In this document: in pieces, positions 2,969-41,482 of the stretch | Numbering within the stretch: the stretch's first letter is position 1 | Layout: each line of letters opens with the position of its first letter | Source: Prevotella sp. | Lineage (GTDB): Bacteria > Bacteroidota > Bacteroidia > Bacteroidales > Bacteroidaceae | NCBI GenBank assembly: GCA_017556145.1 | Contig: JAFZCU010000232.1 | Span: 1 to 41,482 of the forward strand | Length of the DNA stretch: 41,482 nucleotides | Direction: 5' to 3' | Notes under the pieces: generated by a model | Seen by the model: the letters and a program-made list of their open reading frames with translations, nothing else | Database searches by the model: none | Told to the model about the DNA's origin: nothing | Translations under genes and position numbers: made by a program

Positions 2969-2980
2969 AAATTCTTGTAT

Positions 2981-4186
2981 TTAGGGATTAAACTTCATTC
3001 CTGCAGCTCGTTCCTCTGCCAGTTTTTCGTTGCGCTGGAACTTATTAGGCAGAGCCATCGCCTCCATCGGCTTATTCATCACCTGGTCATTCCAGTCCTT
3101 GAAAGCCTTAGCAGGTTTCCACATATCAACCTTGGTACCCAAATCCATGAAAGAAGACAGATCCTTCATTGAAGCTGTTTCTCGGTTCAATAGGTGTTCC
3201 TTGCCGTTGACTGTTACATGAATGGCATCTGTTGCATTGACGATATTGAGGTGTACGCCCTGCATCAGCCCGGCCAAGCGCATACCATAGATACGCCCAG
3301 GGATGTCGTTGTCAAAGCAGTCAACGGCACGGGCATCAGCGTACTTTCGCATGATGCCAGTAACCTGCTGATTAGAGAGAGCACCGCCAAGCGACACAAA
3401 AACGGAACTTTTGGGGTCAAGCTTCAGTCGGTTGAACTGATAGAATGCCATGACATCAAAGCCACTTTCTGCGAAATACACATTCTTAACGTCAAGTGGA
3501 TTCTTGCCACCGGTCATGTCAACTATCCATGCTCCTTGCGAGGAATTAGTGCCTGCAGCCTTACTCTTGAACTTGTTATAGCCTCGTATCTCGTACCCTG
3601 CAACCTCACCTGTTTCCGGTAGCGTGTAGGGAAATCCAAGATTGAAGTTGTTGAATTTTGTGGCGTTCAAGTCCTTTATGCGATTCAGAAAAGGTGCAAA
3701 CGCTTCCACTGTTTCCTGACGGATGCCGCGAGGCTCAAAATAAGTCATCACATGATGCATACTATCCTTGGCAGGAGTGATCATCCAGCGTTTTGGGTCA
3801 AAAACCTGGTTATCGACATATCCAGCCTTTTCAAGATACTTCCCGTCACCATAGTCAGGAATAGGCTCGTCGGCAAACTTGGCCATCACACGTATGATGG
3901 TGTCCCACTTGTCTTTTCCTGTAATAGAAAAGCCATTGATATTCTCCTGAATGAAGTCGATCACATCACCGCCTTTGGAACCGTTGCGGTGGAAAAATGT
4001 CTGTGCCTCCTTGATTTTAGGATTCCGAATCACCACCGTATCAGTATGGCCACCTCTTCCATCAGGCAGGGACATCTCGATGAACTTGCCCACACCAGCA
4101 CCCCTGTTCAGGCGGTAGCCCAGTGAATATGCAATATCATCCACGCCCACTTTCTTTTTAAGATCGTTGAAATTCAAACCTTCCAT
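2981..4186 (-). CDS. Toprim-domain (DUF3991-type) primase-like protein
   Basis: A 401-residue protein. The N-terminal part (DIAYSLGYRLNRGAG, then FFHRNGSKGGDVIDFIQ) matches the DUF3991-type domain that stands where DnaG has its zinc-binding domain. The middle (about 230-310) is a Toprim fold: the acidic strand VYFAESGFDVMAF supplies the Glu, and AVDCFDNDIPGRIYG supplies the DxD-like pair, the metal-binding residues of primases and topoisomerases. No helicase part is present. Such proteins are frequent in Bacteroides conjugative elements and may prime the complementary strand of transferred ssDNA, though that activity is inferred. It follows the ArdC-like gene by 32 bp and precedes the TraI-like paralogue by 12 bp, within one operon. 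Confidence 0.85.
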   Translation of the reverse strand: MEGLNFNDLKKKVGVDDIAYSLGYRLNRGAGVGKFIEMSLPDGRGGHTDTVVIRNPKIKEAQTFFHRNGSKGGDVIDFIQENINGFSITGKDKWDTIIRVMAKFADEPIPDYGDGKYLEKAGYVDNQVFDPKRWMITPAKDSMHHVMTYFEPRGIRQETVEAFAPFLNRIKDLNATKFNNFNLGFPYTLPETGEVAGYEIRGYNKFKSKAAGTNSSQGAWIVDMTGGKNPLDVKNVYFAESGFDVMAFYQFNRLKLDPKSSVFVSLGGALSNQQVTGIMRKYADARAVDCFDNDIPGRIYGMRLAGLMQGVHLNIVNATDAIHVTVNGKEHLLNRETASMKDLSSFMDLGTKVDMWKPAKAFKDWNDQVMNKPMEAMALPNKFQRNEKLAEERAAGMKFNP

Positions 4187-4218
4187 ATTCTCCTGAAAAC
4201 TAATCTTTATGAAATTAA

Positions 4219-5544
4219 CTAACCTATTTTGATAGCCCTTTCCCGTTGCTTTGATATGGAGTTGATTTCGCTGGCATAGCTGCTATTGAGCGTGGAACTC
4301 AGCAATCTCTGTTTTTCCCTGCCTTCCGGCAATGAGAAATAGCGAATGCCAATCTCACGGGCTACAGGTTTCATTTCCAGTTCCGTACCTTTGATGGTTG
4401 CACGAGCCGCAAACTCACCATTCTTCTGCTTCACAATGGCTGCATTCTCGAACTTCGGGCCAACAGCTTCCAACTTAGCATCCTTCATTCCTAGAATGGG
4501 AGTCTCGCCAATGGCTATCTTCTGCTGGTCAATTTTGTCCAAGAGCATGTTTGAAGCTTTGTTTACATCAGAGAGAATACCCAGAATCACTTTCGGATTC
4601 TCACGGAGGTTCTGAATCCAGCCTTGGATATAAGCCGTGTTGTTGTCGAGTATTCGCTTGTCGAAGCCAAGAGAGTTGCCGACAACAGCAGCTGTCATTT
4701 CTGCCACATATTCCTCATGGCCGTATTGGGTATCGCCGAACTGCTTACCCTTGACACGGTTCAGACGTTCAGGTGTTCCTGTGGAATGTGTGGCTTCATG
4801 GAGAAACGTCGAGTAGTATTCCATGCCATCCTTATACACCTCTTCGGGCGTGGAACTGATGTTGAACTGTGATTTCATCGGAATCACAATTCTGTCCAAT
4901 GAGGGAGAAAAGGATGCACCAGGAGCCAGTTGGTCGTACTGCACAGGGCAGACCCATTCCTGACGCTGAAGCATACGGTCAATGGCCGCATTGACATACA
5001 TCCCCTTGTCATCACGCATTTCAGGAGCCATGAAACGCTGCTGGAGCTGCTCATACTTTTGTGGATTCACTTCGGCAAGATTGGTCTGATCGACATTAAA
5101 CTCCTTATAGACGCGGAGAATAGGCGTAGCATCCAAAGCCTTGCGCTCCTCACGGGTCATGGCATCCAGCGTGTCCTTGTCAATACGCTTGCCGTTCTGG
5201 TCTTTATAGACCAAATCCCAAAAGATGACAGGCATGGACTCCGCACCCTTGTTGATACGGAGTCCCATGTTCTGTGCCTGAAGGAAAGTCATGTATAGCG
5301 GCATCTTGTAGCCGTGCATGGCTGTGTCAAGTTGGAGGAAGAAGGAATTTCCACCGTTCAAAGTACCGCTGACGATGTTTTGAGGCAGACCATAGCTGCC
5401 GTAACCGTCAATCCAGCCCTTCTTCCAGTGGCTCTCCTTCATTTCCTCCATTCGGGCAATCATCATATCGGCAAACTTCTCTATCGCAAGCTGCGTCTGC
5501 GGCTTGCTGTCACCGTCATTATGATTATACTTTCTGTTCTGCAT
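4219..5544 (-). CDS. ArdC-type antirestriction protein, ssDNA-binding domain plus zincin metallopeptidase
   Basis: A 441-residue protein. The N-terminal ArdC_N-type domain (about residues 20-125) has the signature LPQNIVSGTLNGGNSFFL and an MTFLQAQNMGLRINKGAES strand. The C-terminal domain (about 200-340) is a zincin peptidase with the active-site HEATH near residue 248, followed by STGTPERLNR and a downstream EEYVAEMTA that probably provides the third zinc ligand. ArdC proteins bind ssDNA and protect incoming plasmid DNA from host restriction. The longer tail after the peptidase (about 340-441) is specific to Bacteroidota homologues as far as I can judge. It is located in the accessory operon, 6 bp after the 68-residue gene. 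All key residues are intact, so I expect it to be functional. Confidence 0.9.
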   Translation of the reverse strand: MQNRKYNHNDGDSKPQTQLAIEKFADMMIARMEEMKESHWKKGWIDGYGSYGLPQNIVSGTLNGGNSFFLQLDTAMHGYKMPLYMTFLQAQNMGLRINKGAESMPVIFWDLVYKDQNGKRIDKDTLDAMTREERKALDATPILRVYKEFNVDQTNLAEVNPQKYEQLQQRFMAPEMRDDKGMYVNAAIDRMLQRQEWVCPVQYDQLAPGASFSPSLDRIVIPMKSQFNISSTPEEVYKDGMEYYSTFLHEATHSTGTPERLNRVKGKQFGDTQYGHEEYVAEMTAAVVGNSLGFDKRILDNNTAYIQGWIQNLRENPKVILGILSDVNKASNMLLDKIDQQKIAIGETPILGMKDAKLEAVGPKFENAAIVKQKNGEFAARATIKGTELEMKPVAREIGIRYFSLPEGREKQRLLSSTLNSSYASEINSISKQRERAIKIG

Positions 5545-5550
5545 AGCCGA

Positions 5551-5757
5551 TTACATCGTTACTATTTGCTCCATGACCTTCTCGTCGGTCATCTCCACAT
5601 ACAGTTCAGCGTTAGTCTCAGTCGGCTCCTCGCCATGATCCTGGCACCACTGCTTATAGTCCTCGGCATCATCGCCCTTCAGAAGAAAGTCAAGCCAGCC
5701 TATTTTGCCGTCCTGCTTCATCTGCACCAGTTCATCGTAGCTAATATTCTGTTCCAT
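5551..5757 (-). CDS. Small acidic protein of unknown function
   Basis: A 68-residue, strongly acidic protein (MEQNISYDELVQMKQDG, then DDAEDYKQWCQDHGEEPTET). It has no signal peptide, membrane segment or metal motif. The start is fixed by the absence of other in-frame start codons nearby and by the 41 bp gap after the MutS-like gene. The stop lies 6 bp before the ArdC-like gene, which suggests translational coupling. Small acidic proteins next to antirestriction genes sometimes mimic DNA, but this one is not recognisable as a known ArdA-type mimic, so that is only a possibility. Co-expression with the MutS-like and ArdC-like genes is the firmest statement. Confidence 0.8.
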   Translation of the reverse strand: MEQNISYDELVQMKQDGKIGWLDFLLKGDDAEDYKQWCQDHGEEPTETNAELYVEMTDEKVMEQIVTM

Positions 5758-5798
5758 AATGATTTCTTTTTAATGGTGATACATATTCAAGGTTCTCT

Positions 5799-7064
5799 TT
5801 ACAGCTTCAGTCCCTGACTGACTTCCTGCTTCACCCCCATCTTCTCATTGATTTCGGGCGTTAGATATTTCGCGGCTAACTGCTGACGGGTAGCCGTCTT
5901 TGCATGGAATAGCGAATAGCCATCATCAAAACTCAGCTCTTTCTTGGCGGTAACACCACGATCGCCCATGTCTGCAGAGATACGCCACTTGTTATCAGCA
6001 TCCTTTGAGACGCGGATATCCTTGATCTCTGCTCCTTCAGGGAGTTTGAACTGTTCATAGTGTGATGCGAGATGCAGGCGTTGTCCCAGATTGTTTTCGA
6101 CAAGCTGCTTGGGAGTAGTAACACGATCGAAGTATGCATTAAGGTCGTGGTTGTTCAATGGAGTGGACATCTTCTGCTCGCCAACCTGTGCGTAGAGCAT
6201 CCATTTCCCAAAGTTCTGGCTTTGCTGGTTAGCCTCCTTGTAGACATTCATCTTGTCGATGGTACGTCCATCAGAGAGAATGGTTGCAGCCTTGTATTCC
6301 TCTGCAGGAATCTGTTTCATCAGCTTGGTAGGATAGTAGGTCTGCATCAGTTGCTCAACAGTCCTCTCCTTCTTGCTGTAGGCAGCAACATCATCAGCAG
6401 ACATCTTCTGGGGATGAAGTTCCTTACCGTCTATCTTAGCGGTAAAGAACCAGTCTTCCGGATTCTTGTTCGACTGGTAGGCATGGGCATGAGTGACCTT
6501 GCCACCATTGACAGTCACCATCTGCGGCTCACGGTGCTGCTTCTCGCCTTGCTCTGTCTTTTCAGTTTTCTCTGTTGCTTTGCCTACGGGCTTTTCCGTA
6601 AGATTCTGTTCCTTCTGTTTCAAGTCTGCAGGAGAAACTTTCTCTGTCACCTTTGCCTCAATCTCGTCCACAATGGCGATGCGTACACCGGCTCTTACGA
6701 GTTTCGGCAAATAGCTGTCAAGGGCATGGTGTGGGAACCCTGCTAACTGCTCACCCTGAGATTTGTCCTGCGGTTTTGTTAAGGTAATGCCCAGAATCTT
6801 GGATGCTTTTTGAGCATCTTCATTCACGGTTTCATAGAAATCGCCCTTGCGGAAGAGCAGCATTGCGTCGGGGTGCTTTTCCTTCAAGGAAGTGTACTGC
6901 TCTGCCAAAGAGGGCGTCTTGTCTGTCTTGCTGACGGATTCTGACTTGGCTTTGACTTCTGTCTCTGCCTCATTCTTTGCTGCGGGATGTTTTACGGACT
7001 TGGCCTTTGCCTCTGTCTGGACAGACTCCTGCTGCGTCTCATCTTTTACTTTTTTCTTTGCCAT
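5799..7064 (-). CDS. MutS domain-I (mismatch-recognition) protein lacking the ATPase, with C-terminal repeats
   Basis: A 421-residue protein. After a Lys/Glu/Ala-rich disordered start (1-50), residues about 52-140 match MutS domain I: LAEQYTSLKEKHPDAMLLF, then RKGDFYETVNEDAQKASKIL, AGFPHHALDSYLPKLV and IAIVDEIEA. The GDFYE segment keeps the Phe-x-Glu pair that MutS inserts at mismatches. The MutS connector, lever, clamp and ATPase domains are all absent. After a charged linker come three repeats of about 75 residues with the pattern aromatic-x-x-A-x-hydrophobic-G, then D-x-x-A/G-Y, then QL-x-x-x-Y/N-L (near 205-250, 285-330 and 355-405). These are of the type seen in DUF3945-like proteins. 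It heads the part of the accessory operon leading to ArdC. Annotation as a mismatch repair enzyme would be wrong; binding of distorted or hemimethylated transferred DNA is a guess. Confidence 0.85.
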   Translation of the reverse strand: MAKKKVKDETQQESVQTEAKAKSVKHPAAKNEAETEVKAKSESVSKTDKTPSLAEQYTSLKEKHPDAMLLFRKGDFYETVNEDAQKASKILGITLTKPQDKSQGEQLAGFPHHALDSYLPKLVRAGVRIAIVDEIEAKVTEKVSPADLKQKEQNLTEKPVGKATEKTEKTEQGEKQHREPQMVTVNGGKVTHAHAYQSNKNPEDWFFTAKIDGKELHPQKMSADDVAAYSKKERTVEQLMQTYYPTKLMKQIPAEEYKAATILSDGRTIDKMNVYKEANQQSQNFGKWMLYAQVGEQKMSTPLNNHDLNAYFDRVTTPKQLVENNLGQRLHLASHYEQFKLPEGAEIKDIRVSKDADNKWRISADMGDRGVTAKKELSFDDGYSLFHAKTATRQQLAAKYLTPEINEKMGVKQEVSQGLKL

Positions 7065-7456
7065 AATCTCTTTTTATTGTTGTTGATATAAGGTGAATCA
7101 AAAACACTAAAAACTGGGTATATACTCACACTGACATTCAGCGGCAAATCCCAAAGATTATGCATGGAAACAAAACTGTGCCACACTTGCCCGTTTCTCT
7201 CAACGGGCCGTGGAAACCCTGCCAATCCCGCATATAGGACTGGCAAGGTGGGGAATAAAAGGTATGGCAACATTGTATTCAGGCATAACTTTTTAGGGAA
7301 ATGCGCCATTGCCTAACTCTAGGCAATCAGGGAATACAATTTAAAGTCCCCACATTATGGCACCCGGATATCGGGCTTTGTGGTTTTAATATTAAAGGAA
7401 CCCATTAATGGTGCAAATTGTTGTCTTGTATACTATATTATATATAGGTATAAAGC
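7065..7456 (-). promoter_or_regulatory. 392 bp structured noncoding region with hairpins, palindromes and an iteron-like copy
   Basis: No convincing gene lies here. Visible structure: a perfect 7 bp hairpin GCCCGTT/AACGGGC (7189-7208), an imperfect hairpin TGCCA/TGGCA (7220-7245), a perfect 8 bp hairpin ATTGCCTA-ACTC-TAGGCAAT (7308-7327), and two palindromes, TTTAATATTAAA (7385-7396) and CCATTAATGG (7402-7411). An iteron-like sequence lies at 7287-7308, and a block at 7109-7150 resembles 30280-30321. No TAnnTTTG element was found in minus orientation, so the MutS-like gene may be read from the promoter near 8268. A cis-acting replication, partition or regulatory site is likely, but which one cannot be told. 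Confidence 0.6.
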
Positions 7457-8230
7457 CTACAGCTTGACTCCAAAATCTTTCTTCTCCTCTTTCTTTGTGG
7501 TTAATTCAGTATCATTCTTTCGTGAAAGCCCGTCAACGACCTTCTGATATTCCCAACGGTTCTCGTCGGTCTGGACATAGCCCATGAAGTCATCATTAAC
7601 AAGATCATATTTGATTTTCTTCTGGCGATCCCATTCCTGCATATCGCCATTTACAATCTTATAACCCTGTGGCTCACGAAGGTCAACACCAACGGTAACA
7701 GGCTGACCGCCAACGTTCAGTTCAATAGGCTTGCCCTCCTGGGCTGCCTGTTTCTGGTTGGTTCCCAGCTCAATATCGTTGATTTTCTCCATCTCTCGAA
7801 GTTTCTCAGCAATTCTGACGTGAGCAATGCTTCTTGGTATCAGTGAAAGCGTCTCATTGTCAAGCTGGATGAACTTCATTTTCTTAATCCCGTCCTCCTC
7901 AATCTCTTTTCGGATAACGTCACCACGCTTGACGCGGTTCAGTTCACGGGTAGTAAGATTAAACTCGTTCGCAATCTCATTGCGAAGTGGATAAGTCTGA
8001 AGCTTAACATTCCCCTCGTCATCATGGGTGAGCTGTATCTTCATCGGCATTTCAATGGTCTTACCATTCTCTGCCTTGATGTAAGCTTGGATGAGTGGTG
8101 ACACTCTACCATTGATGATTGGGTCAACTAAATTTTTGGGCATAGACAGGAAAGCACGTCTGCTAATGCCTAGCTTCTCCAACTTATCATAAGGAATTTC
8201 TTCCTCTAAAAAAGATCTTTTATTAGTCAT
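7457..8230 (-). CDS. DUF4099/DUF3945-like element protein
   Basis: A 257-residue soluble protein. The opening (PYDKLEKLGISRRAFLSMP) resembles DUF4099, and the middle with a HVRIAEKLREMEKINDIELG region followed by a glutamine-lysine segment (TNQKQAAQEGKPIELNVGG) resembles DUF3945. Both are found in accessory genes of Bacteroides conjugative transposons. The domain assignment is from memory of these patterns and is tentative. Its biochemical role is unknown. It is the first gene after a divergent promoter region and is followed by a 392 bp structured noncoding stretch before the MutS-like gene. The start at 8230 lies about 25-30 bp downstream of a predicted transcription start. Confidence 0.75.
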   Translation of the reverse strand: MTNKRSFLEEEIPYDKLEKLGISRRAFLSMPKNLVDPIINGRVSPLIQAYIKAENGKTIEMPMKIQLTHDDEGNVKLQTYPLRNEIANEFNLTTRELNRVKRGDVIRKEIEEDGIKKMKFIQLDNETLSLIPRSIAHVRIAEKLREMEKINDIELGTNQKQAAQEGKPIELNVGGQPVTVGVDLREPQGYKIVNGDMQEWDRQKKIKYDLVNDDFMGYVQTDENRWEYQKVVDGLSRKNDTELTTKKEEKKDFGVKL

Positions 8231-8249
8231 ATTTGTTAAAACTTTAAAT

Positions 8250-8268
8250 TAACTTTGCTGCAAAATTA
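8250..8268. promoter_or_regulatory. Face-to-face divergent -7 elements
   Basis: A plus-strand TAACTTTG (8250-8257) and a minus-strand TAATTTTG (plus coordinates 8261-8268) both match the Bacteroidota -7 box TAnnTTTG and are separated by 3 bp. The first would serve the cell-wall hydrolase gene at 8287, the second the DUF4099-like gene at 8230. The -33 elements are less regular: TTTG at 8232-8235 for the plus strand, and CAA at 8293-8295 for the minus strand with a long spacer. Confidence 0.65.
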
Positions 8269-8286
8269 CGAACATTTATCAGAATT

Positions 8287-9372
8287 ATGAAACAAAAACG
8301 TGTTTTTCTTGCATTTTTTATGCTACAATTGGTCTATATCAATACATATGGACAATTTTTTACCATCTGTGCCGATTCACTCCACAAGATGGAAGTAATG
8401 AACGAAGAAACTCTGTATGACTCTCTAAAGGCAGACAAACAAGTGTTCCCTGACACTATTAAGGACTCGAAGGGAGCAGAAAAGGGAAAAGAACTGTTCT
8501 CTGAACCTCATGGTTGTGAGGTTTCGATTGAAAAGAATGTGCCCGTGTTTGTCAATGTGAGTACATATCCACTTTTTGACCTTATCCAAAAGCGTGTAAC
8601 TGTATGTCTTCCTCTGGATTACCTGAAACAGAACTCAGGATATGGCTATCGGACAGATCCTGTTTATAAGTGTCAGAAATTCCACGATGGCATAGATTTG
8701 AGTTGCCGTTATGAAAATGTCTATGCCATGTTGCCAGGAGTAGTGAAGGAGGTCCATCGGGGTAACAGAGGCTACGGGAATTATGTTGTCCTTCAGCATG
8801 GCAACATCGAATGTCTTTATGGCCATCTTAGCCTGATACTTGTCAACGAGCATGACGAAATACAAGCAGGTGATGTTGTCGCTATATCAGGAAACACAGG
8901 GAAATCCACGGGGCCACACCTTCACCTTCGACTAAAGAAGGATGGGAAAAGTGTGGATCCCAAGCCGTTTATAACCTATCTCAATGGCTACATAGACGAT
9001 TTACAGGACAGAATTGCCTCACTGAAATTTGGCAAAAAGCCAGACAAAGAACTGAATATAGGTAATCTGGCCAAGGCACTGGAAACTTATCATGTAAAAT
9101 ATCCGAAGATAGTTATCGCCCAGAGTCTGTTGGAAACTGGCTATTTTACATCGAGAGTCTGTTTGGAATGCAAGAATCTCTTTGGTCTGCGCCGTCCGAG
9201 TGATGGCAGTTACTATAAGTTTGAACGCTGGGAGGATTCCGTAAAAGCCTACAGGGACTATGTACAGTACAAGTATAAAGGTGGCAACTATTACCAGTTC
9301 CTCAACAGAATCGGCTATGCAGAAGATAAGGAGTATGTCCTTAAAGTCAGTCAGATAGCCAAACGCTTGTAG
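8287..9372 (+). CDS. Secreted M23 endopeptidase / glucosaminidase cell-wall hydrolase
   Basis: A 361-residue protein with a signal peptide (MKQKRVFLAFFMLQLV to about residue 23). Residues about 100-225 form an M23 LytM-type metallopeptidase: YGYRTDPVY, the zinc ligands in KFHDGIDLSC, YGHLS, and the catalytic HLHLR after GKSTGPH. Residues about 255-361 form a glucosaminidase (GH73-like) domain with IAQSLLETGYFTS, whose Glu is the likely acid catalyst, then CKNLFGL. The protein should cleave both the peptide and the glycan of peptidoglycan, opening the wall for the transfer channel as VirB1-type lysozymes do. It is the only plus-strand gene between the tra and accessory operons, and its stop lies 3 bp from the end of the convergent TraX gene. 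Confidence 0.92.
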   Translation: MKQKRVFLAFFMLQLVYINTYGQFFTICADSLHKMEVMNEETLYDSLKADKQVFPDTIKDSKGAEKGKELFSEPHGCEVSIEKNVPVFVNVSTYPLFDLIQKRVTVCLPLDYLKQNSGYGYRTDPVYKCQKFHDGIDLSCRYENVYAMLPGVVKEVHRGNRGYGNYVVLQHGNIECLYGHLSLILVNEHDEIQAGDVVAISGNTGKSTGPHLHLRLKKDGKSVDPKPFITYLNGYIDDLQDRIASLKFGKKPDKELNIGNLAKALETYHVKYPKIVIAQSLLETGYFTSRVCLECKNLFGLRRPSDGSYYKFERWEDSVKAYRDYVQYKYKGGNYYQFLNRIGYAEDKEYVLKVSQIAKRL

Positions 9373-9375
9373 CTT

Positions 9376-10011
9376 CTACCTTATCAGATAAATCAGTATC
9401 AGGTGGGCTGGATAGAAAGCATAGAAGGCATATTTTGCTGCCTTTCCATGTATGAAACCTCGCTCACCATTATAGAGGAAGATGACGGCAAAGGCCATAA
9501 GTATTCCCATGAAGCCATACTCGTACATCAGGGGAAGTCCGAAAAGCATCTGTAAGTCAGGCCTGCCCCTGAACATAAAGAATAGCAGAGTCAGTACGAA
9601 TCCATTCAAAGAATAGTCTGTTTCTGCCATTAGGGTTGTGCAGCCAATCAGTACGAGAGAGGCCTGCGTAACCCACTTGTTCCTGCTGGTGTCTATGATA
9701 TACATCCCTATAACACCTGCCAATAGTGTAAAAAGTACATTATGGCTATCGTCATGGTTCAGAAGGAGCCAGGGTATCTCTGAAAGGATGGCAAATGTGA
9801 ACAGGCTCAGCATATACCGCTGCCTGTTTCTCGTATGTACATATCCTTCTGCCAGAAGAAAGGCGAATGTTGGGAAGGCGATGCGACCGACAGTACGCAT
9901 CAGCTCATAGACATATGGGTTGCTAACGCCGTAATAGTAGGCGATATGATCAATGGTCATTGAGAGAATGGCTATAACTTTTAGCCAACTCCCGCTCAGT
10001 TGTGTTGTCAT
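9376..10011 (-). CDS. traX: TraX family membrane protein
   Basis: A 211-residue polytopic membrane protein. LKVIAILSMTIDHIAYYYG, VGRIAFPTFAFLLAEGYVHT with RNRQRY, and FAILSEIPWLLL are the conserved blocks of the TraX family, which includes the F-plasmid protein that N-acetylates pilin. About seven hydrophobic segments are visible. It stands after the terminator that closes the tra operon (10031-10060), so its transcription depends on readthrough or on a promoter inside the terminator-traX gap that I could not identify. Acetylation of a TraE-like pilin is an inference from the family; other TraX homologues act on sugars. Confidence 0.88.
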   Translation of the reverse strand: MTTQLSGSWLKVIAILSMTIDHIAYYYGVSNPYVYELMRTVGRIAFPTFAFLLAEGYVHTRNRQRYMLSLFTFAILSEIPWLLLNHDDSHNVLFTLLAGVIGMYIIDTSRNKWVTQASLVLIGCTTLMAETDYSLNGFVLTLLFFMFRGRPDLQMLFGLPLMYEYGFMGILMAFAVIFLYNGERGFIHGKAAKYAFYAFYPAHLILIYLIR

Positions 10012-10030
10012 CTTGTGTTATCCTTGAAAA

Positions 10031-10060
10031 GAAAAAGGCTGCCAGAGAATCCGACAGCCT
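10031..10060 (-). terminator. Rho-independent terminator at the end of the tra operon
   Basis: On the minus strand AGGCTG (10060-10055) pairs with CAGCCT (10041-10036), followed by a T-rich run (TTTTTCTTTT, complement of 10026-10035). It lies 16 bp after the stop of the XRE regulator gene and upstream of traX. Confidence 0.8.
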
Positions 10061-10075
10061 GATTATTGTTGTTCG

Positions 10076-10546
10076 TTACAGAAGTTCAATAGTCTGTTCC
10101 AGTCGTTTCAAAAGTCTCTCTCTGGTTTTTGAAGTATAGTCCAGCATTTGCTGGTTCATCTTATCAAGCAGCTCGTCAACGAGTTCCCTGACATTCACAT
10201 CATATTCTTTCTGCAAATTCTTGATGTAATCAGTAGCGTCCTCTTGCAGCAACTGCAAACGAGCCTTTACATGGCTCTCCATTGCAGGGTTTTTGCTGTA
10301 GAGGGCTTCATCCTCCGGGTCGAATGCTTTACCAAAAAGAACATCAAGGGAAACAGATTGAGAATAGAAAACCAGTAAGGGCAAAAGTGATGTAGAGGTT
10401 TCTCCACGCTCCATACGTGAGATGGTCAGAGATGCACATCCGATTTCTTCAGCAACGTCCGTCTGTTTCAACTTTAGGTGCATTCTAACTTTCTGGAGTC
10501 TTTCACCCAGTGTTTTCATATCCAACTTCTGTACAAACTCATTCAT
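10076..10546 (-). CDS. XRE-family helix-turn-helix regulator
   Basis: A 156-residue protein. Residues 13-70 form a Cro/CI-type HTH (LGERLQKVRMHLKLKQTDVA, EEIGCASLTISRMERGETST). The C-terminal half (about 75-156) is a long, charged coiled-coil-like segment (EDATDYIKNLQKEYDVNVRE onward), which probably mediates oligomerisation. It is the last gene of the long tra operon, 3 bp after the coupling-protein gene, and is followed by a terminator. A role as repressor of the element is likely, with candidate operators in the tra leader (26904-27010) or the divergent region near 8.26 kb, but the target is not shown by the sequence. Confidence 0.85.
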   Translation of the reverse strand: MNEFVQKLDMKTLGERLQKVRMHLKLKQTDVAEEIGCASLTISRMERGETSTSLLPLLVFYSQSVSLDVLFGKAFDPEDEALYSKNPAMESHVKARLQLLQEDATDYIKNLQKEYDVNVRELVDELLDKMNQQMLDYTSKTRERLLKRLEQTIELL

Positions 10547-10549
10547 ATG

Positions 10550-12868
10550 CTAAGATTCTTTAGATGTCATTCCAAGAAGTTCGGAAATCATGGCATCTAC
10601 CTCATCATTGATTCGTTTGAAGTTGCGGTTGAGCATAATCTCCTTCTCCTTATCGGATGCAAAGGTATATATTTTCGGCAAATCTTGATAGTATTTCTCT
10701 TCCTTTTTTATCTTTTCCATATCAAAATTTGTCTTGCAGAAGTATTTCGTGGTCTTGAACTCCTCTGATTCTTCAATATCGAAACCGTCAAGTGAAGCTT
10801 TGTCGGTAGGAGTAAAGTCACGAGCAGCCTGTCCTGCCAACCATCCAGTCGCCATATCCGCTATTTTTGCAGCGGGTACGAGGAAGTCCATTTTCTCTTG
10901 AATGGATGTCGATACCCGTTGGTCGTTAATCGTGATAGACTTCTGCGTCTGCTTGGCCTTTCCAAACACATCATTCTGTGCCCATTCCAGCGTTTCCTTG
11001 TTGCGGGCTGCACCCATGAAGATGTTACCGCAGGTGGTCAGTATCTTCTGCATACCAACTTTGCCGTAGTCAGCTTCAAGTTGCGGAAGCTCCTGAAATC
11101 CCAAAGTGACAGCCACCTTATTGCTTCGCGCTGTACCAATCAGACGATCTATCTTGTGGAAGTAGAGCGTAGGCAGCTCATCCACGATGATAGATACCGG
11201 AATGTTGCCTTTGCTGTTCACGCGGGTAATAAGACGATTCAGGATCAAGGCATTCAGCGAGCCAATCACCTGCTCCTTGTCGGGGTCATTGGCAATGACA
11301 AGGTATGACGGATGGGTTGGATCTGAAATCTTCAGGTCGAAATCATCACCAGTGAAGACCCAATAAGCTTCAGGCGATACAAGCCGGGCTGCATTGACAC
11401 GAAGCGTTCCAACCATACCTTCCAGCTGATCCATAGCTTTGTTCTTCCAGGCAGACTGGAAAGGAGCCATCAGCGACATGATTTTCTCATCCTGCATCAG
11501 AATGTCGAAAATCTCACTATATGGCCGTCCCAAAAATGATAAAACATGCGGCATGTCAGAAAACTCGCCCGTAATGGTGTCTGGTTCCACTATGTTCCCT
11601 TCATCATCCTCATACCACGACTTGTTGATGATAACCAGATTCCCATCCATATCACTGTATGAGAATCCGTTAAGGTCAACAAACATGCCGTCATCATCTG
11701 TTGAAACGTTCCTGCTGTGCTGGTCAAGGAAGTCCAATACCACTTTTCCATTGTCATCTACGGCATTATAATCCACCCAATAGCGGGTTATCAGCTTTAA
11801 CCGCTGGCCATTGTAAAGAATGTAACGGGTCAGCTTCTTACCATTCTTCCAGCCTGTAGGATGGAAGTTGATGAAGAAGTAGATGATACTTGCAAGGAAG
11901 TTCTCCGCTGAGTTCTGGAAGAAGGATTCTGAACCACCTTTCTTCTCACTGCCTTTGTTCAGGGCCTCCAACAAAGTAGCAGCCGTTTCTGATGCTCCTG
12001 CCAAATCAGGGATGTACTTGCGTTGGATAGGATTCACACGATTGGAGTACTCAACATCAGAGAAGTTGACGATATGAAACCCGCAGTTCTTAGGCAGGTG
12101 GCCATACCGCTTGTTCTTACAGTATTGGTAAAACAGTGTCTTGCCAAGTGTCGGAAACTTGTAATCATAGCACATGATAGCAAAGCCCTTGGCGGCATGT
12201 TGCCGTATGAATGGGTCGATGATGCCAAACGACTTACCAGATCCAGGTGTACCTAAGACGATGGTACCACGAAAAGGATTAATGATGTTAATCCATCCCT
12301 TGTGCATCCGCTTGTTCAGGTAGTACACCATCGGGATATTCACAGAATACTCATTGGCATTCAACTCTTCCGACTGTTCAAAGGACTCGTTCTCAAAGTT
12401 AAACCTGTCCTCTCCCAACTTATAGTTGTAGTAGCGGGCAATGCCATCACCTCCTTGGTGGACAAGCATTGTACCTACAATACTTGAAAGCGCATATAGC
12501 ACCCTGTTCGTGGAGAAGCCACAGAGTTCGCCACCCCATAGTCCATGCTGGAGTACTATACAGACGATAATCAGCGAGAATCCGACAGCCATAGGATAGA
12601 TGACCATTGTCCTGACATTGAATCGAAGGCTTTTCTTTGCTCTTGTGCCAATACAGGTTATCCCGATACATACCAGCTCAATGAACTTACATGTCGCCAC
12701 ACTATTAAATATCTGGAATCGTCCCAACAACTCCAATACGAACTGTGTAGCCCGACTTTCCGATGTGATGGGCAGGTTCATCACCAGTTCGATAATCAAA
12801 AAGATATAGATGCAGCTTCTGAAGTAGTTATACATCTGCAGCTGTTCCCTTGTTTCTTCTGTTCCCAT
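10550..12868 (-). CDS. VirD4/TraG-type coupling protein (T4CP)
   Basis: A 772-residue inner-membrane ATPase that brings the relaxosome to the secretion channel. The first 130 residues hold several hydrophobic helices (CIYIFLIIELVMNLPI and three more). Walker A is GTPGSGKSFGIIDPF near residue 209, and Walker B is VSIIVDELPTLYF near 560; NEVA-like motif III and the GLQ-like FQELPQLE follow. The type is that of the Bacteroides MobC/TraG coupling proteins. The gene is at the distal end of the tra operon, preceded by a hairpin (12888-12924) and followed after 3 bp by the XRE regulator. In many Bacteroides elements the T4CP gene lies next to the mob genes instead. All motifs are intact. Confidence 0.93.
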   Translation of the reverse strand: MGTEETREQLQMYNYFRSCIYIFLIIELVMNLPITSESRATQFVLELLGRFQIFNSVATCKFIELVCIGITCIGTRAKKSLRFNVRTMVIYPMAVGFSLIIVCIVLQHGLWGGELCGFSTNRVLYALSSIVGTMLVHQGGDGIARYYNYKLGEDRFNFENESFEQSEELNANEYSVNIPMVYYLNKRMHKGWINIINPFRGTIVLGTPGSGKSFGIIDPFIRQHAAKGFAIMCYDYKFPTLGKTLFYQYCKNKRYGHLPKNCGFHIVNFSDVEYSNRVNPIQRKYIPDLAGASETAATLLEALNKGSEKKGGSESFFQNSAENFLASIIYFFINFHPTGWKNGKKLTRYILYNGQRLKLITRYWVDYNAVDDNGKVVLDFLDQHSRNVSTDDDGMFVDLNGFSYSDMDGNLVIINKSWYEDDEGNIVEPDTITGEFSDMPHVLSFLGRPYSEIFDILMQDEKIMSLMAPFQSAWKNKAMDQLEGMVGTLRVNAARLVSPEAYWVFTGDDFDLKISDPTHPSYLVIANDPDKEQVIGSLNALILNRLITRVNSKGNIPVSIIVDELPTLYFHKIDRLIGTARSNKVAVTLGFQELPQLEADYGKVGMQKILTTCGNIFMGAARNKETLEWAQNDVFGKAKQTQKSITINDQRVSTSIQEKMDFLVPAAKIADMATGWLAGQAARDFTPTDKASLDGFDIEESEEFKTTKYFCKTNFDMEKIKKEEKYYQDLPKIYTFASDKEKEIMLNRNFKRINDEVDAMISELLGMTSKES

Positions 12869-35312: not shown

Positions 35313-35957
35313 GTGACAAAGAAGATTCTGACATACGACCAACTGGGCATCGGGCTTACAGACATCTATGAGCAGATGGGTTACCATGAGGTGTTGCCTG
35401 ACGATGCGACACAAAGGGAAACTCGCGCCATCATCGATGAAGTCAGAAGCTGGCTTCGTCCGCAATTCTGTTTCTTCGTCACCCGCGAACTTCCTGTTTT
35501 TGAGATGGGGCGGATTATCGGAAACCAGTTGCGAGGGTCAGAAGCCTATGCACTTTTCATCTGCACTTGCGGTCAGGAATTCGAGTCTTATCAGCAGCAA
35601 CTGAAGACGAGAGGTGATATGGTTCATATGTTTATCGCCGATGCCTTGGGGAGTGTGATAGCTGAGAAATGTGCCGATGAAATGGAGGAAAATGTGCAGA
35701 GAAGCATCGGAAAACTGGGTTGGCATCACACCAATCGCTTCTCGCCTGGCTATTGTGGTTGGCATGTCTCACAACAGCAGTTGTTGTTTCCTCTGTTTAA
35801 GGGTGAGACTTGCGGTGTCAAGTTAACCGAATCATCGCTGATGGTGCCCATCAAGAGCGTCAGCGGGGTCATTGGTTTGGGAAAAGAAGTCCGCAGACTT
35901 GACTATACCTGCGGACTCTGTGATTTTGAGACGTGCTATAAGCGTCGGAAAAGATAG
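35313..35957 (+). CDS. Stand-alone methionine synthase activation-domain protein
   Basis: About 214 residues. I start at GTG 35313 because the -7 element occupies 35300-35307; a TTG at 35295 would start within the promoter. The core matches the SAM-dependent reactivation domain at the C terminus of Met[21 protein letters not shown] (R-x-SPGY motif), then [31 protein letters not shown] lies in the first half, and the C terminus holds a Cys cluster ([16 protein letters not shown]) that could bind a metal or an Fe-S cluster. It converges with the large corrinoid methyltransferase with a 2 bp gap and most likely reactivates its oxidised cob(II)alamin. Separate activation proteins of this type are known from bacteria with short MetH forms. 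Confidence 0.85.
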
Positions 35958-35959
35958 TC

Positions 35960-38788
35960 TCAGCTTTTTGATTTCAGCAATTCTTTGGCGACGGTCACGG
36001 CCGAGTTTGCATTGTCACTATAGCCGTCGGCCCCGATTTCATCGGCATATCCTTGCGTTACAGGGGCTCCACCCACCATCACTTTCACCTGGTCTCTGAT
36101 GCCTGCTGCCACGAGCGCATCGATCACCTCTTTCATATAACCCATGGTGGTCGTGAGCAGCGCACTCATGCAGAGAATATCGGGCTGGTTATCCTTGACG
36201 GCTTGGATAAAAGCGTCGGCAGACACATCGATACCAATGTTCACCACCTCAAAACCACAACCCTCGAGCATCGAAGCCACAAGATTCTTACCGATGTCAT
36301 GCAAGTCGCCCTTGACAGTGCCTATTACCACCTTTCCTAAAGAGGTTGCAGTCGTATCTGCCAACAGCGGTTTTATGAGTTCAAGTGCCGATTTCATCGC
36401 CCTTCCGGCCATTAACAGCTGAGGGACAAATGCCTTCCCATTTTGGAATTGCCGACCGATCTCTCCCATGGCACGGATCATCTGACCATTGATCAGAACC
36501 TGCGGGGCAGAGCCTTGGGCGATGGCCTCTTTTGTAGCCGCTGCAGCCTCATCGCTCTTGCCGGCGAGGATGGCATTGAAGAGGCGCTCAGCAGGAGAGG
36601 AAGGGGTTTCCGGAGTAATCGGAGTAGTCGGAGTAATCGGAGTGTTTTGATTATTCGGAGCTTTCTGATACTTCGGCTTTTGGGGGTGTAGGGGTGAGAG
36701 AAACAAGCCAGGCATCGGCTCGATGGCCTTTGCCATCTGGCGTATATGGGCATCCGTTGTGCCGCAGCAGCCTCCGACGATATTCAGACAATGGTTCTCC
36801 AACAGTGGCCAGAGGTCGGCAACCAGACTCTCTGGCAACTTCTGATAATGACCGTTTCCATCGGGCATCCCCGCATTGGGATAGATACTTACCTTTAACC
36901 CGAATGATGCCAACTGATAAACAAGAGGTGTCATCAATGGAACATCGGAGAGGCAATTGATTCCAACAGATACGATGCCGTCCTTGGGAATCGTATTCAG
37001 GAATCCGATAATACTTTGCCCCAGCATGTTATGACCATCAGGCGTTGACACCGAGAAACTGAGCATGATGGGTAACGCGGGGGCCGTCTCTCTGGCCACT
37101 TTAATGGCAATCTCCGCATTCCTTACATCAAAAATCGTCTCGATGAGCAAGGCGTCGACACCCCCATCTGACAAAGCCTGGATCTGTTCGGCGTAAGCCG
37201 CTTCAAGCAGTGATTCATCCAACGGTTCACCACTGGTGGCAACAGAGGTTGTACGACTGGTAGGTCCAATGCTACCTAATACCAATCGTGGCTTTTCCGG
37301 GGTCTTAGCCGTGAATTCATCAGCCAATTGGCGGGCAATCTTGACTGCGGCGAGGTTGATGTCGCGACAATGGTCCGACAGTCCATAATCCTGCATCGAA
37401 ATGCGCTGGGCATTGAATGTATTCGTTTCAATCAGGTCTGCACCAGCCTCAAGATATCTGCGGTGAATGCTACTTATCACATGAGGAGCTGTCAGCGACA
37501 AGACATCGTTGCAACCCTTGAGGTCGTAGCCATGGTGAGCAAATCGGGTTCCCCTGAAATCTGCTTCACAGAGATGAGACTGCTGGATCATCGTTCCCAT
37601 CGCTCCATCAAGGACCAAAATACGATTTTTGCCGATTTCATCGAGAGAAATTCGTGAGTGCCGAACATGATTTTCCGTCAGTCGGATGATGTCTTCCACC
37701 TCACGGTCTGTCTCATCCTTGCTTTGGAACTCCTCAACGATACGCATGGCTTGTTCCACTTCCCGCTCGTTATGGAAGTCCATTTCAAGATGCACACCCT
37801 CGCCACCGATATGATCCAGCAAAGGCTTCAGTTCATCGAGCGTCACCCAACAAGCCATGATGCTCTTGCCGCCATCGAGGATCTTCCGATACAAGTCATA
37901 CCATTTTGGCGAACCGCCCTGAGGCTCACCGACTCCTGGAGTCCATTGGATGGCGTTCAGTTCGTCGATTTCCAGCAACGCATCGAGATGATGCATGGCA
38001 CCAACGCCATCGAGATGATAGAGGGTATATTCGATCTTCTGACACTGTTCACGAATGAACGGCTGGACAAAACGGCGATAGTCATCGATACTGATCATCG
38101 TGGAAATATCGCTTTGCAGCTTAGACATCTTGCCTGGTGCCCATGAGGAGAAATAACAAAATGCCATTTCATCGCCTTCGCGGATGATATCATACAGTTC
38201 ATCGAACACCTGGAAATAGATGTCGTTGAGCTGTTGCATCTGATGCTCCAACACCTCGGGCTGCATCACCGTATCAAGCAATACTTTGTCAGTGCCCTTG
38301 ATGGCAGCCAACACATCGAGACCCTCCATCAAGTCGGGCATTCCCACATAATAATGACCTTGGGCCTTTTTCTTACAAGCCTTCAGCAGATTCTTATGCA
38401 ACAGATAGTTGGGATGGCTGGGATTGAACGTAATCTCGTCAGTATAGTCGGGATTGGGGTGTATCCAAATGGTATCCTCGCCTCCTTCAAACACACCACC
38501 AAGGATGGCCGCCAACGAGCCAGGCCCCAGCTGCGTATTTGCCACAGGAAGCATATCGGCCATCAGCGAAGAGTGGGCCACATACCAGTCGAGATAGTCG
38601 GCCCGCCATTCCGGATCGAACCACCGCTGGTTCAAATCACGATAGGGCTTGGGGGCAGGAACATCTGCATGAGGCTTTACACCCTCCTGAAAGTGCTCCC
38701 ACATATTGAGGATGATTCCCTTGTGATTCCACCAGTCGACATAGTGTTTCTTGGTCTCTTCGAGATTAGGTTTCCAAGTATGCATCAT
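35960..38788 (-). CDS. Three-module corrinoid methyltransferase: URO-D-like + homocysteine methyltransferase + B12-binding domain
   Basis: A 942-residue protein. Residues about 1-370 form a URO-D-like methyltransferase domain (WWNHKGIILNMWEHF, TLYHLDGVGAMHHLDALLEI, MACWVTLDEL), related to MtaA/MtbA/CmuA-type corrinoid methyltransferases. Residues about 385-690 are a homocysteine S-methyltransferase with zinc ligands in GINCLSDVP and GGCCGTTDAH and the opening LVLDGAMGTMIQ. A Thr/Pro linker (about 695-730) follows, then a MetH-like helical cap and B12-binding domain with the cobalt-ligand motif DLHDIGKN near 828. The pterin/folate-binding and reactivation domains of full MetH are absent; reactivation is encoded next door. 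I start at 38788 because the frame upstream covers the promoter. It probably makes methionine from a non-folate methyl donor, which is unknown. Confidence 0.85.
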   Translation of the reverse strand: MMHTWKPNLEETKKHYVDWWNHKGIILNMWEHFQEGVKPHADVPAPKPYRDLNQRWFDPEWRADYLDWYVAHSSLMADMLPVANTQLGPGSLAAILGGVFEGGEDTIWIHPNPDYTDEITFNPSHPNYLLHKNLLKACKKKAQGHYYVGMPDLMEGLDVLAAIKGTDKVLLDTVMQPEVLEHQMQQLNDIYFQVFDELYDIIREGDEMAFCYFSSWAPGKMSKLQSDISTMISIDDYRRFVQPFIREQCQKIEYTLYHLDGVGAMHHLDALLEIDELNAIQWTPGVGEPQGGSPKWYDLYRKILDGGKSIMACWVTLDELKPLLDHIGGEGVHLEMDFHNEREVEQAMRIVEEFQSKDETDREVEDIIRLTENHVRHSRISLDEIGKNRILVLDGAMGTMIQQSHLCEADFRGTRFAHHGYDLKGCNDVLSLTAPHVISSIHRRYLEAGADLIETNTFNAQRISMQDYGLSDHCRDINLAAVKIARQLADEFTAKTPEKPRLVLGSIGPTSRTTSVATSGEPLDESLLEAAYAEQIQALSDGGVDALLIETIFDVRNAEIAIKVARETAPALPIMLSFSVSTPDGHNMLGQSIIGFLNTIPKDGIVSVGINCLSDVPLMTPLVYQLASFGLKVSIYPNAGMPDGNGHYQKLPESLVADLWPLLENHCLNIVGGCCGTTDAHIRQMAKAIEPMPGLFLSPLHPQKPKYQKAPNNQNTPITPTTPITPETPSSPAERLFNAILAGKSDEAAAATKEAIAQGSAPQVLINGQMIRAMGEIGRQFQNGKAFVPQLLMAGRAMKSALELIKPLLADTTATSLGKVVIGTVKGDLHDIGKNLVASMLEGCGFEVVNIGIDVSADAFIQAVKDNQPDILCMSALLTTTMGYMKEVIDALVAAGIRDQVKVMVGGAPVTQGYADEIGADGYSDNANSAVTVAKELLKSKS

Positions 38789-40368: not shown

Positions 40369-41482
40369 ATGGCAAAATTCTTTTTAAGAACTACTCAAAC
40401 GTCAGGCAATGCAAGCCTATACGTGAAAGTGTCTCGCCCAAAGTTTGGGGTGCAGTGGATGGTAAACACCGAAATCGAGGTTGATGTTAAGGAATGGACT
40501 AAGGCACAATCAGGAGCCAAAAATCTTTCCAAGTACCTTGCTACTGATGAAGGAAAGAAAGTACAAAAGTTAATGGGTACTGTTGAAGAAATAATAAAGA
40601 TATTCTTTGATAGTATTGATTCTGTTGATCAGGAAAGCAAGAACGACCTTCTTAACGAAATCAAAGCCGTTGTGCGCTTAGATGGAACCAAGGCAAAGGA
40701 GGAATTAAAACAGCGAGAACTGGACGCAATCAAAGCAAAGGCAGAGGAAGAAAAGAACCGTTTATGTCAAGTATGGAATTACTACGAATACTTTCTATCA
40801 GGAATCAAAGACGGTAGTATTCGACATGGCGAACAAAAGCGTTACACAGAATCTTCAATATCTGCATGGACTACGTTTGGAAAGCATTTGCATGGTTTTC
40901 TCGAGTATCGTCATAATCTTAGTATGACATTTGATGATATCGACCGCACAACGGCTACAGCCTTTATTACATATTTAGAGCAAAAAGAGTTGATGAAGGG
41001 AACTATTAGCCAACAGACGAACCATTTCCGCAAACTCTGCAACATAGCAGCCGAGGACGGCAAGAACCGAAACGGAACAAGTCTTAAAGTATGGAAGTCA
41101 CACGAACAAAAAGACGATGAAAAACGAGCCGAAATAGTATTGTCAGATATGGAGGTAGATGCACTATACAACTTGAATCTGACTGGCTACGTTGAGCAAT
41201 GCCGTGACTTATGGATATTGGGGTATTTCTCAGCACAGCGAGTTTCAGACTACAGCAACTTTTCAAGAGATAATTTTGGTATCAATGAAGATGGTACTCC
41301 AGTTATACGGCTACGTCAGAAAAAGACTGAGACAGAGTTAGAAGTACCGATTTTAGATGAAAGGGTGTTTGAGATTTGCGACAAATACAATTATCATTTT
41401 CCGAATCTCAAACGTGATGCAATTAATAGGGGAATCAAGATGGCTTGTAAGATGTTGGCAGAATCTGTACCAACTCTTAACC
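40369..41482 (+). CDS. Tyrosine recombinase (integrase), 3' end outside the window
   Basis: An open frame of 371 codons from ATG 40369 to the right edge with no stop. The N-terminal arm-type domain (MAKFFLRTTQTSGNASLYVK, then NTEIEVDVKEWTKA) is that of Bacteroidota phage-integrase proteins. The SAM-like core-binding domain follows at about 140-240 (LCQVWNYYEYFLSGI, TATAFITYLEQKEL). The catalytic domain begins with WILGYFSAQRVSDYSNF, where the Arg of AQR is the first catalytic Arg, and VIRLRQKKTETELEVPI supplies the catalytic Lys. The H-x-x-R and Tyr parts lie beyond the edge. It reads away from tRNA-Val, whose 3' end is the probable attachment site, and should be the first gene of a second mobile element. 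Confidence 0.9.
   Translation, partial: MAKFFLRTTQTSGNASLYVKVSRPKFGVQWMVNTEIEVDVKEWTKAQSGAKNLSKYLATDEGKKVQKLMGTVEEIIKIFFDSIDSVDQESKNDLLNEIKAVVRLDGTKAKEELKQRELDAIKAKAEEEKNRLCQVWNYYEYFLSGIKDGSIRHGEQKRYTESSISAWTTFGKHLHGFLEYRHNLSMTFDDIDRTTATAFITYLEQKELMKGTISQQTNHFRKLCNIAAEDGKNRNGTSLKVWKSHEQKDDEKRAEIVLSDMEVDALYNLNLTGYVEQCRDLWILGYFSAQRVSDYSNFSRDNFGINEDGTPVIRLRQKKTETELEVPILDERVFEICDKYNYHFPNLKRDAINRGIKMACKMLAESVPTLN

Follow-up and report, generated by a model that had tools for sequence, protein, structure and literature searches.

What supplies the methyl group to a corrinoid methyltransferase that has the homocysteine and vitamin B12 modules of methionine synthase (MetH) but not its folate-binding module? 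This question is raised by a fusion protein of 942 amino acids (aa) and a short reactivation protein encoded beside it, both on a 41,482-nt contig of a Prevotella sp. genome (contig JAFZCU010000232.1, GenBank assembly GCA_017556145.1), which was analysed over its whole length and is here called the window. We infer the substrate, the direction of transfer, the acceptor and every activity from the domain architecture, the predicted fold, sequence motifs, operons and co-occurrence across genomes. Taken together, these suggest that the fusion is probably a corrinoid O-demethylase for 2-O-methyl-D-xylose, or for its disaccharide with alpha-1,3-linked fucose, from side chain A of the pectin rhamnogalacturonan II (RG-II), and that it feeds methionine. 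The features on which the argument turns are the following.

35960..38788, minus strand: 942-aa fusion of an N-terminal domain (N-domain) like the first methyltransferase (MT1) of corrinoid systems, a homocysteine S-methyltransferase and a corrinoid protein (open reading frame [ORF], Pfam/NCBIfam domains)
37664..38788, minus strand: N-domain, residues 1-375, proposed O-demethylase (MT1)
38006..38020, minus strand: YHLDG, residues 257-261, a His-x-Asp replacing the His-x-Cys zinc site of S-methyltransferases (invariant in 71/71 aligned fusions)
36722..37618, minus strand: homocysteine S-methyltransferase domain, residues 391-689 (PF02574, S-methyl_trans, E 2e-80)
36371..36592, minus strand: B12-binding cap domain (B12-binding_2), residues 733-806 (PF02607, E 1.4e-20)
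35996..36337, minus strand: B12-binding domain, residues 818-931 (PF02310, E 1.7e-30)
35313..35957, plus strand: short reactivation protein, 214 aa, with an RFSPGY S-adenosylmethionine (AdoMet)-type motif and a C-terminal Cys cluster (PF02965, E 1.4e-15)

A scan of a genome collection confirmed 181 relatives of the fusion, of which 80 were kept; one of these (L101) has no N-domain ORF, and the counts therefore refer to 79 loci. With that many related loci carrying an N-domain ORF, the three-module fusion is far beyond chance. All three modules are present, in the same order, in 70 of the loci and the N-domain with the B12 part in six, so that the corrinoid protein is fused to the N-domain in 76; the remaining three, which show the N-domain and the homocysteine domain, are cut by contig ends. 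A separate corrinoid protein gene, adjacent or nearby, was found at L024, L025 and L190-L194. In the 71 fusions that could be aligned, the B12 motif DLHDIG (residues 828-833, with His830 as the predicted B12-binding residue) and the zinc cysteines 612, 674 and 675 of the homocysteine domain are invariant. The most conserved part is the N-domain, with 209 of 375 positions invariant compared with 56 of 315 in the homocysteine domain. Between the window and L085, the codons of the N-domain differ about ten times more often at third positions (0.467) than at second positions (0.048), indicating that the fusion gene is under purifying selection. No match to the pterin-binding domain PF00809 was obtained in the 942-aa protein up to E 1, and the Pfam search found no reactivation domain in it. 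The fusion scored 465 bits against the NCBI metH equivalog TIGR02082, below the cut-off of 1010.85, and the best carrier-model scores of its C-terminal corrinoid part were to MtgC/MtbC-type models, below the cut-offs of those models. Judged by sequence, the fusion is not a member of the MetH family, having no folate module and falling below the metH cut-off. An earlier note on this DNA, made from the letters alone, had described a three-module corrinoid methyltransferase with DLHDIG that lacks the folate-binding and reactivation modules, and had pointed to YHLDG where MtaA-type enzymes have His-x-Cys; the domain searches bear out this architecture, and YHLDG is invariant in the alignment.

The N-domain gave no Pfam or NCBIfam match, and none to URO-D (PF01208) even at E 1; a PDB profile search with it returned one irrelevant weak match only. 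A structure model built from 22 sequences was used for fold searches; among the families that the structural alignments listed, its predicted fold came nearest to those of the corrinoid methyltransferase MtaA and of uroporphyrinogen decarboxylase (UroD). A previous model from 10 sequences was mediocre (pLDDT, the predicted local distance difference test score, of 69.6), and its fold searches led to the same superfamily. On the model, then, the N-domain is a TIM barrel of the UroD/MtaA fold. The earlier note had called it 'URO-D-like', a description that holds for the predicted fold and fails at the level of sequence. According to excerpts of PMC10418091, S-methyltransferases of the UroD superfamily have a His-Cys-Cys site, while O-methyltransferases swap one or both Cys for carboxylates or for non-coordinating residues. 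His258-x-Asp260, whose place in the metal site is a reading of the sequence and the secondary structure, would agree with this rule and is what an O-demethylase would be expected to have. A BLAST search of plasmids with the N-domain gave a single match, of 21% identity, on a plasmid of Subdoligranulum. This Subdoligranulum variabile plasmid (L166, 3265-14120) carries four URO-D-like ORFs, one of them the 21% relative, together with sugar ABC transporter genes and a large alpha-mannosidase-like ORF (all by eye).

The short reactivation protein (reactivase) is encoded convergently to the fusion with a 2-bp gap, and is followed by pnp in the window genome. Its match to PF02965, the activation domain of MetH, is limited to the second half (positions 121-272 of 273), and it also matches the short solved protein 1j6r (E 1e-5), with RFSPGY aligned to the RxSPGY motif of that protein. 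In the reactivation domain of MetH-type enzymes, the motif RxxPGY has a role with AdoMet. The stand-alone reactivation protein that the earlier note had placed 2 bp from the fusion, in convergent orientation, is therefore confirmed by its ORF and by PF02965. The functional pair proposed there also gained support, as a reactivase is present in 10/10 genomes of the family that carry the N-domain and in 8/141 of those that do not (nominal Fisher 3.5e-11; the 18 genomes include two weak matches, G054 and G110). This count and the other co-occurrence counts below were each taken over 151 genomes of the family. Outside this pairing, the short reactivase lies directly beside a threonine synthase gene in two g24 genomes (L080, 6490-8479; L081, 5329-7328; Pfam on L080). 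The family survey found no N-domain in the g24 genomes.

The relatives reveal a gene neighbourhood that the window itself does not show. The N-domain was found in 10 of the 151 family genomes and in 22 of 149 genomes of the genus of G032 (designated g3), where 21 matches were strong and one, in G577, was weak (E 4.5e-4); a survey of 395 genomes of the phylum gave, besides the window genome, two weak matches only. All nine other copies in the family have a gene for a glycoside hydrolase of family 31 (GH31; split into two ORFs in L021) and one for an SSS-family symporter nearby, and seven of the nine also have a GH141-type beta-helix enzyme. The order kept among relatives is GH141, GH31, N-domain (with or without the homocysteine domain) plus B12 domain, and SSS. 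Within the stretches fetched for the 79 loci, GH31 was present in 50, GH141 in 49, the symporter in 44, the reactivase in 45 and a second, MtaA-like URO-D protein, here called UROD2, in 48. The genes are tightly packed, with median gaps of -2 bp between GH141 and GH31 (42 pairs), 11 bp between GH31 and the fusion (27) and -15 bp between the fusion and the reactivase (32). UROD2 matches MtaA (4ay7, E 5e-14) and retains His-Asn-Cys and a distal Cys in 8/8 aligned copies. In L195-L197, from three genomes of g3 (a genus that is perhaps Bacteroides), the whole set stands together beside RpiB and transketolase genes (Pfam on L195, the others by eye). The divergent g3 locus L190 encodes on one strand an unfused GH31, an N-domain protein of 353 aa, the symporter, a corrinoid protein of 222 aa, UROD2 and the reactivase. 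Thus MT1, corrinoid protein, a second methyltransferase (MT2) and activator are encoded together in L190, while only MT1, carrier and activator are found in the window. Once GH31 and the symporter are left aside, the genes of L190 make up a textbook corrinoid methyl-transfer system, so that the window protein resembles a fused version of one.

Since the protein of the relatives belongs to a sugar-degradation operon, the methyl donor is more readily sought in a methylated sugar than in an N-methyl compound. The earlier note had proposed a non-folate donor with an O- or N-methyl group; the O-methyl part is upheld by inference, and the N-methyl part is not, given the carbohydrate context. An N-methyl donor was accordingly set aside, as nothing was found in its support.

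Co-occurrence points the same way. A GH31 ortholog (E 1e-180 or better, a threshold chosen after a paralog in the window's own genome had been seen at 8.9e-121 with a related query) is present in 10/10 genomes with the N-domain and in 0/141 without it (nominal Fisher 8e-16). This agreement includes the window genome, where the two genes lie on different contigs. Of the ten genomes listed for the window's own genus, two have the N-domain, and the reactivase and GH31 are confined to those two. UROD2 (E 1e-40 or better) is present in 9/10 genomes with the N-domain and in 5/141 without. The RG-II marker domain PF24067 (BT_1020-like) was found in 10/10 and 10/141, respectively (nominal Fisher 1.5e-10; one of the 20 genomes, G123, has a weak match).

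What singles out RG-II side chain A is the GH141 enzyme. BT1002, the founding member of GH141, releases 2-O-methyl-D-xylose-alpha-1,3-L-fucose from this side chain (PMC10154630, in part). We compared three of the operon-type GH141 proteins with the PDB, and all matched BT_1002 (5mqp): the long type of L018 over nearly its whole length (E 7e-178), the shorter Prevotella type of L088 (E 4e-93) and the GH141 on contig C134 of the window genome (E 1e-89). In the last of these, a protein of 1357 aa (L071, 2847-6920), the GH141 part follows a GH78 rhamnosidase to which it is fused. Other neighbours of the pectin-side-chain type were GH78 and GH106 rhamnosidases, DUF5703 proteins and a BT_1020-like enzyme. 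The GH31 protein keeps both catalytic motifs, KTDFGE and HWGGD. By eye, GH141 has a signal-peptide-like N-terminus and GH31 does not; this points to release in the periplasm, then import, and cleavage in the cytoplasm. RG-II is described as having a conserved form in all plants; its rare sugars include 2-O-methyl-xylose and 2-O-methyl-fucose, and most of the linkages in it have a known enzyme from gut bacteria (PMC12168206, in part). The open-licence literature yielded no report of gut bacteria handling the methyl ethers of RG-II and, in the portions available, no account of the fate of the methyl group after the BT_1002 step; the accessible part of PMC11784079 holds nothing on this system. 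The simplest model suggested by these data is that the demethylated sugar is 2-O-methyl-xylose.

The middle domain bears on where the methyl group goes. In a tree containing 18 fused homocysteine domains (those of the window, of three other family fusions and of every fifth of the 70 full fusions), these form one clade (support 0.98), and their nearest neighbours are the homocysteine modules of MetH from family genomes. The homocysteine domain is absent and the N-domain kept in 6/6 g8 loci and 8/8 fetched g3 loci; in four of the six g8 loci and in L195-L197, the N-domain and carrier are fused without it. A MetH-type acceptor module thus appears, from these sequence comparisons, to have been inserted between MT1 and carrier, which makes methionine the probable product in Prevotella. 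In loci without the insert, UROD2 is a candidate acceptor enzyme, which by its zinc residues would be of the thiol type; that its acceptor might be homocysteine is a guess. The two do not simply replace one another, since many Prevotella loci have both UROD2 and the insert. Four g24 genomes also have UROD2, three of them together with the reactivase. In the g8 loci L073, L077, L078 and L082, glyA (serine hydroxymethyltransferase; Pfam on L073) and pyrB/pyrI-like genes precede UROD2 and the reactivase, and in L083 and L084 (g24) the position after glyA is occupied instead by a stand-alone gene whose 306-aa product resembles a homocysteine methyltransferase.

We therefore propose the following route. 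A periplasmic GH141 would release 2-O-methyl-xylosyl-fucose, the SSS-family symporter would import it and a cytoplasmic GH31 would split it. The N-domain, acting as MT1 through its His-x-Asp metal site, would then transfer the ether methyl group to the Co(I) of the C-terminal corrinoid domain, from which the middle domain would pass it to homocysteine, giving methionine and leaving free xylose. The short reactivase, supplied with an electron donor and AdoMet, would return Co(II) to the reduced state. The MtaA-like His-Cys-Cys enzyme UROD2 may, in many relatives, act as a methyl acceptor enzyme in addition to this one or in its stead.

Several observations weigh against this proposal. At the level of sequence, the libraries searched hold no characterised methyltransferase that the N-domain matches, and its profile-profile comparison with UROD2 revealed no relationship (probability 0.2%, the alignments being shallow). 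No sugar gene was found in 25 of the 79 loci and neither reactivase nor UROD2 in 28, as counted within the fetched stretches, many of them on short contigs. In the window genome, UROD2 was not found (the assembly is 83% complete), and the fusion gene is not beside sugar genes, the GH31, the symporter and the GH78-GH141 fusion lying apart from it on C134. The nominal Fisher values overstate the association, as they ignore kinship among the ten genomes, which come from three genera, and the 10/141 genomes that carry the RG-II marker without the N-domain imply that RG-II can be broken down without it. As for the enzymes, GH31 includes alpha-xylosidases such as YicI, in which a Cys-Phe pair determines specificity. 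Our GH31 has Thr-Gly at this pair, and its nearest solved relative, 5f7c (which we take to be B. thetaiotaomicron BT_0339), is labelled an alpha-glucosidase, so that a role as alpha-xylosidase is not established. Finally, the second and only other characterised GH141 enzyme is a xylanase (PMC10154630, in part).

Could the fusion instead be a variant of B12-dependent methionine synthase, with an N-domain whose role is non-catalytic or unrelated and with the canonical MetH machinery providing methyl-tetrahydrofolate in trans? The grouping of its middle domain with MetH homocysteine modules of Bacteroidota would agree with this. However, the N-domain, which such a variant would not need for catalysis, is the part under the strictest conservation and is the part retained in the g8 and g3 loci where the homocysteine domain is missing. 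The genome also encodes a complete split MetH: a 920-aa protein on contig C129 with the homocysteine domain, the pterin-binding domain (E 2e-57) and both B12 domains, and a full-length reactivation protein of 287 aa on contig C199, an arrangement described for BT0180/BT0249 of B. thetaiotaomicron (PMC7311316, in part). We consider a methionine synthase variant very unlikely; because of the complete split MetH, the window pair is a second system and not the housekeeping enzyme. The same genes rule out that the pair is the only MetH of the organism or a broken one. The earlier note had implied a stand-in for an incomplete MetH, and this did not survive, since the 920-aa MetH and the separate full-length reactivase coexist with the pair. 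Of the two-part refutation that the note had named, the first part, a complete metH with a folate domain, applies, the gene being that on C129; for the second part, lack of expression or lost cobalamin binding, no evidence emerged, and the B12 motif is invariant.

The remaining alternatives concern the donor. The known O-demethylases of the UroD superfamily act on phenolic methyl ethers (PMC10418091, in part), which would favour a methoxylated aromatic or another non-sugar O-methyl compound of the plant wall, handled in the manner of OdmB or VdmB, with the sugar genes incidental. The gene order shared with GH141, GH31 and a symporter of sugar type, and a co-occurrence with GH31 that is exact even where the genes lie on different contigs, make this improbable. 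A more serious contender, though still a doubtful one, keeps the same corrinoid O-demethylase logic and changes the sugar, the donor being 2-O-methyl-L-fucose from side chain B of RG-II, a methyl glycoside, or some other methylated sugar of a plant or bacterial glycan. GH78, GH106 and DUF5703 genes stand beside the fusion in L099 and L110 or flank the operon in L190. Moreover, L079 of G149 (2488-10722) clusters GH29, a corrinoid protein, UROD2, the reactivase, a RhaT-type transporter, GH95 and a second URO-D protein, and thus joins fucosidase-family genes (GH29/GH95) and that transporter to corrinoid genes. It is a possible locus for demethylation of methyl-fucose or a methyl-deoxysugar; fucose-linked versions may accordingly exist, and as an independent parallel it points to a broader association of corrinoid systems with deoxysugars. 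For the fusion, on the other hand, the presence of the GH31 ortholog agrees with that of the N-domain in every one of the 151 genomes, and the accompanying GH141 type is the known releaser of 2-O-methyl-xylosyl-fucose. We thus retain 2-O-methyl-xylose of side chain A as the donor that we favour.

The window genome assembly (3.46 Mb in 242 contigs) is 82.7% complete and 5% contaminated. Most of the window (1-32158 and 40369-41481) resembles a Bacteroidales conjugative or mobilisable element, with genes for TraG, a coupling protein, TraM, DUF4138, a relaxase, an M23/glucosaminidase protein and a Rep3-type initiator, and with an integrase-like ORF at the contig end (within 40369-41481). Inside this element, a 421-aa protein (5799-7064, minus strand) has MutS domain I (PF01624) as its sole match. 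The fusion and reactivase genes sit between pnp and the integrase-like ORF, a position that may account for their separation from the GH31 operon.

In summary, we think it likely, though well short of certain, that Prevotella, Phocaeicola and Bacteroides from gut and rumen carry out anaerobic, B12-dependent demethylation of O-methylated pectin sugars with homocysteine as the methyl acceptor, the steps being fused into one protein in Prevotella. If so, an ether of the plant cell wall would be a source of methyl groups for methionine, dietary pectin, vitamin B12 and methionine would be linked in gut bacteria, and UroD-fold corrinoid enzymes would gain a new substrate class. There would also be an anaerobic route for the demethylation of sugar ethers, the known marine route being one that needs oxygen. 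Searches of the open-licence literature turned up no description of corrinoid enzymes that demethylate sugar ethers. The candidate gene set named here is present in tractable species, one of which is Phocaeicola vulgatus ATCC 8482, where a protein of N-domain plus B12 part is encoded at about 3719948-3721750 of NC_009614.1 (minus strand).

In its proposed working, the system resembles the three-component O-demethylases and, in part, MetH. It shares with MetH, including BT0180/BT0249, the homocysteine methyltransferase and B12 modules and a separate reactivation protein. It differs in having a UroD-fold donor domain in place of the folate-binding module and a corrinoid module nearer to MtgC/MtbC-type models. 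BT_1002 is related to it through the operon GH141s that match this enzyme and through its product, which carries the proposed methyl donor; as a hydrolase, however, it acts upstream of the proposed demethylation step. With MtaA, MtbA and the bacterial Mlp proteins (PMC10418091) the N-domain shares its predicted fold, and the UROD2 of the relatives matches MtaA, but the N-domain has His-x-Asp; the word stem 'Bacteroid' is absent from the main text of that paper. The acetogen O-demethylases of the OdmABC, VdmABC and MtvABC type combine a UroD-superfamily MT1 with a corrinoid protein (separate or fused), an MT2 and a reductive activator, and the same components recur here. To our knowledge, coenzyme M is not known in these bacteria. 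The likeness to the acetogen systems lies in the component make-up, but in the Prevotella system, which is contained in one chain, the predicted donor is a sugar ether instead of a phenyl ether, the predicted acceptor is homocysteine instead of tetrahydrofolate, and the activator is a MetH-type AdoMet domain instead of a Ram/RACE ATPase.

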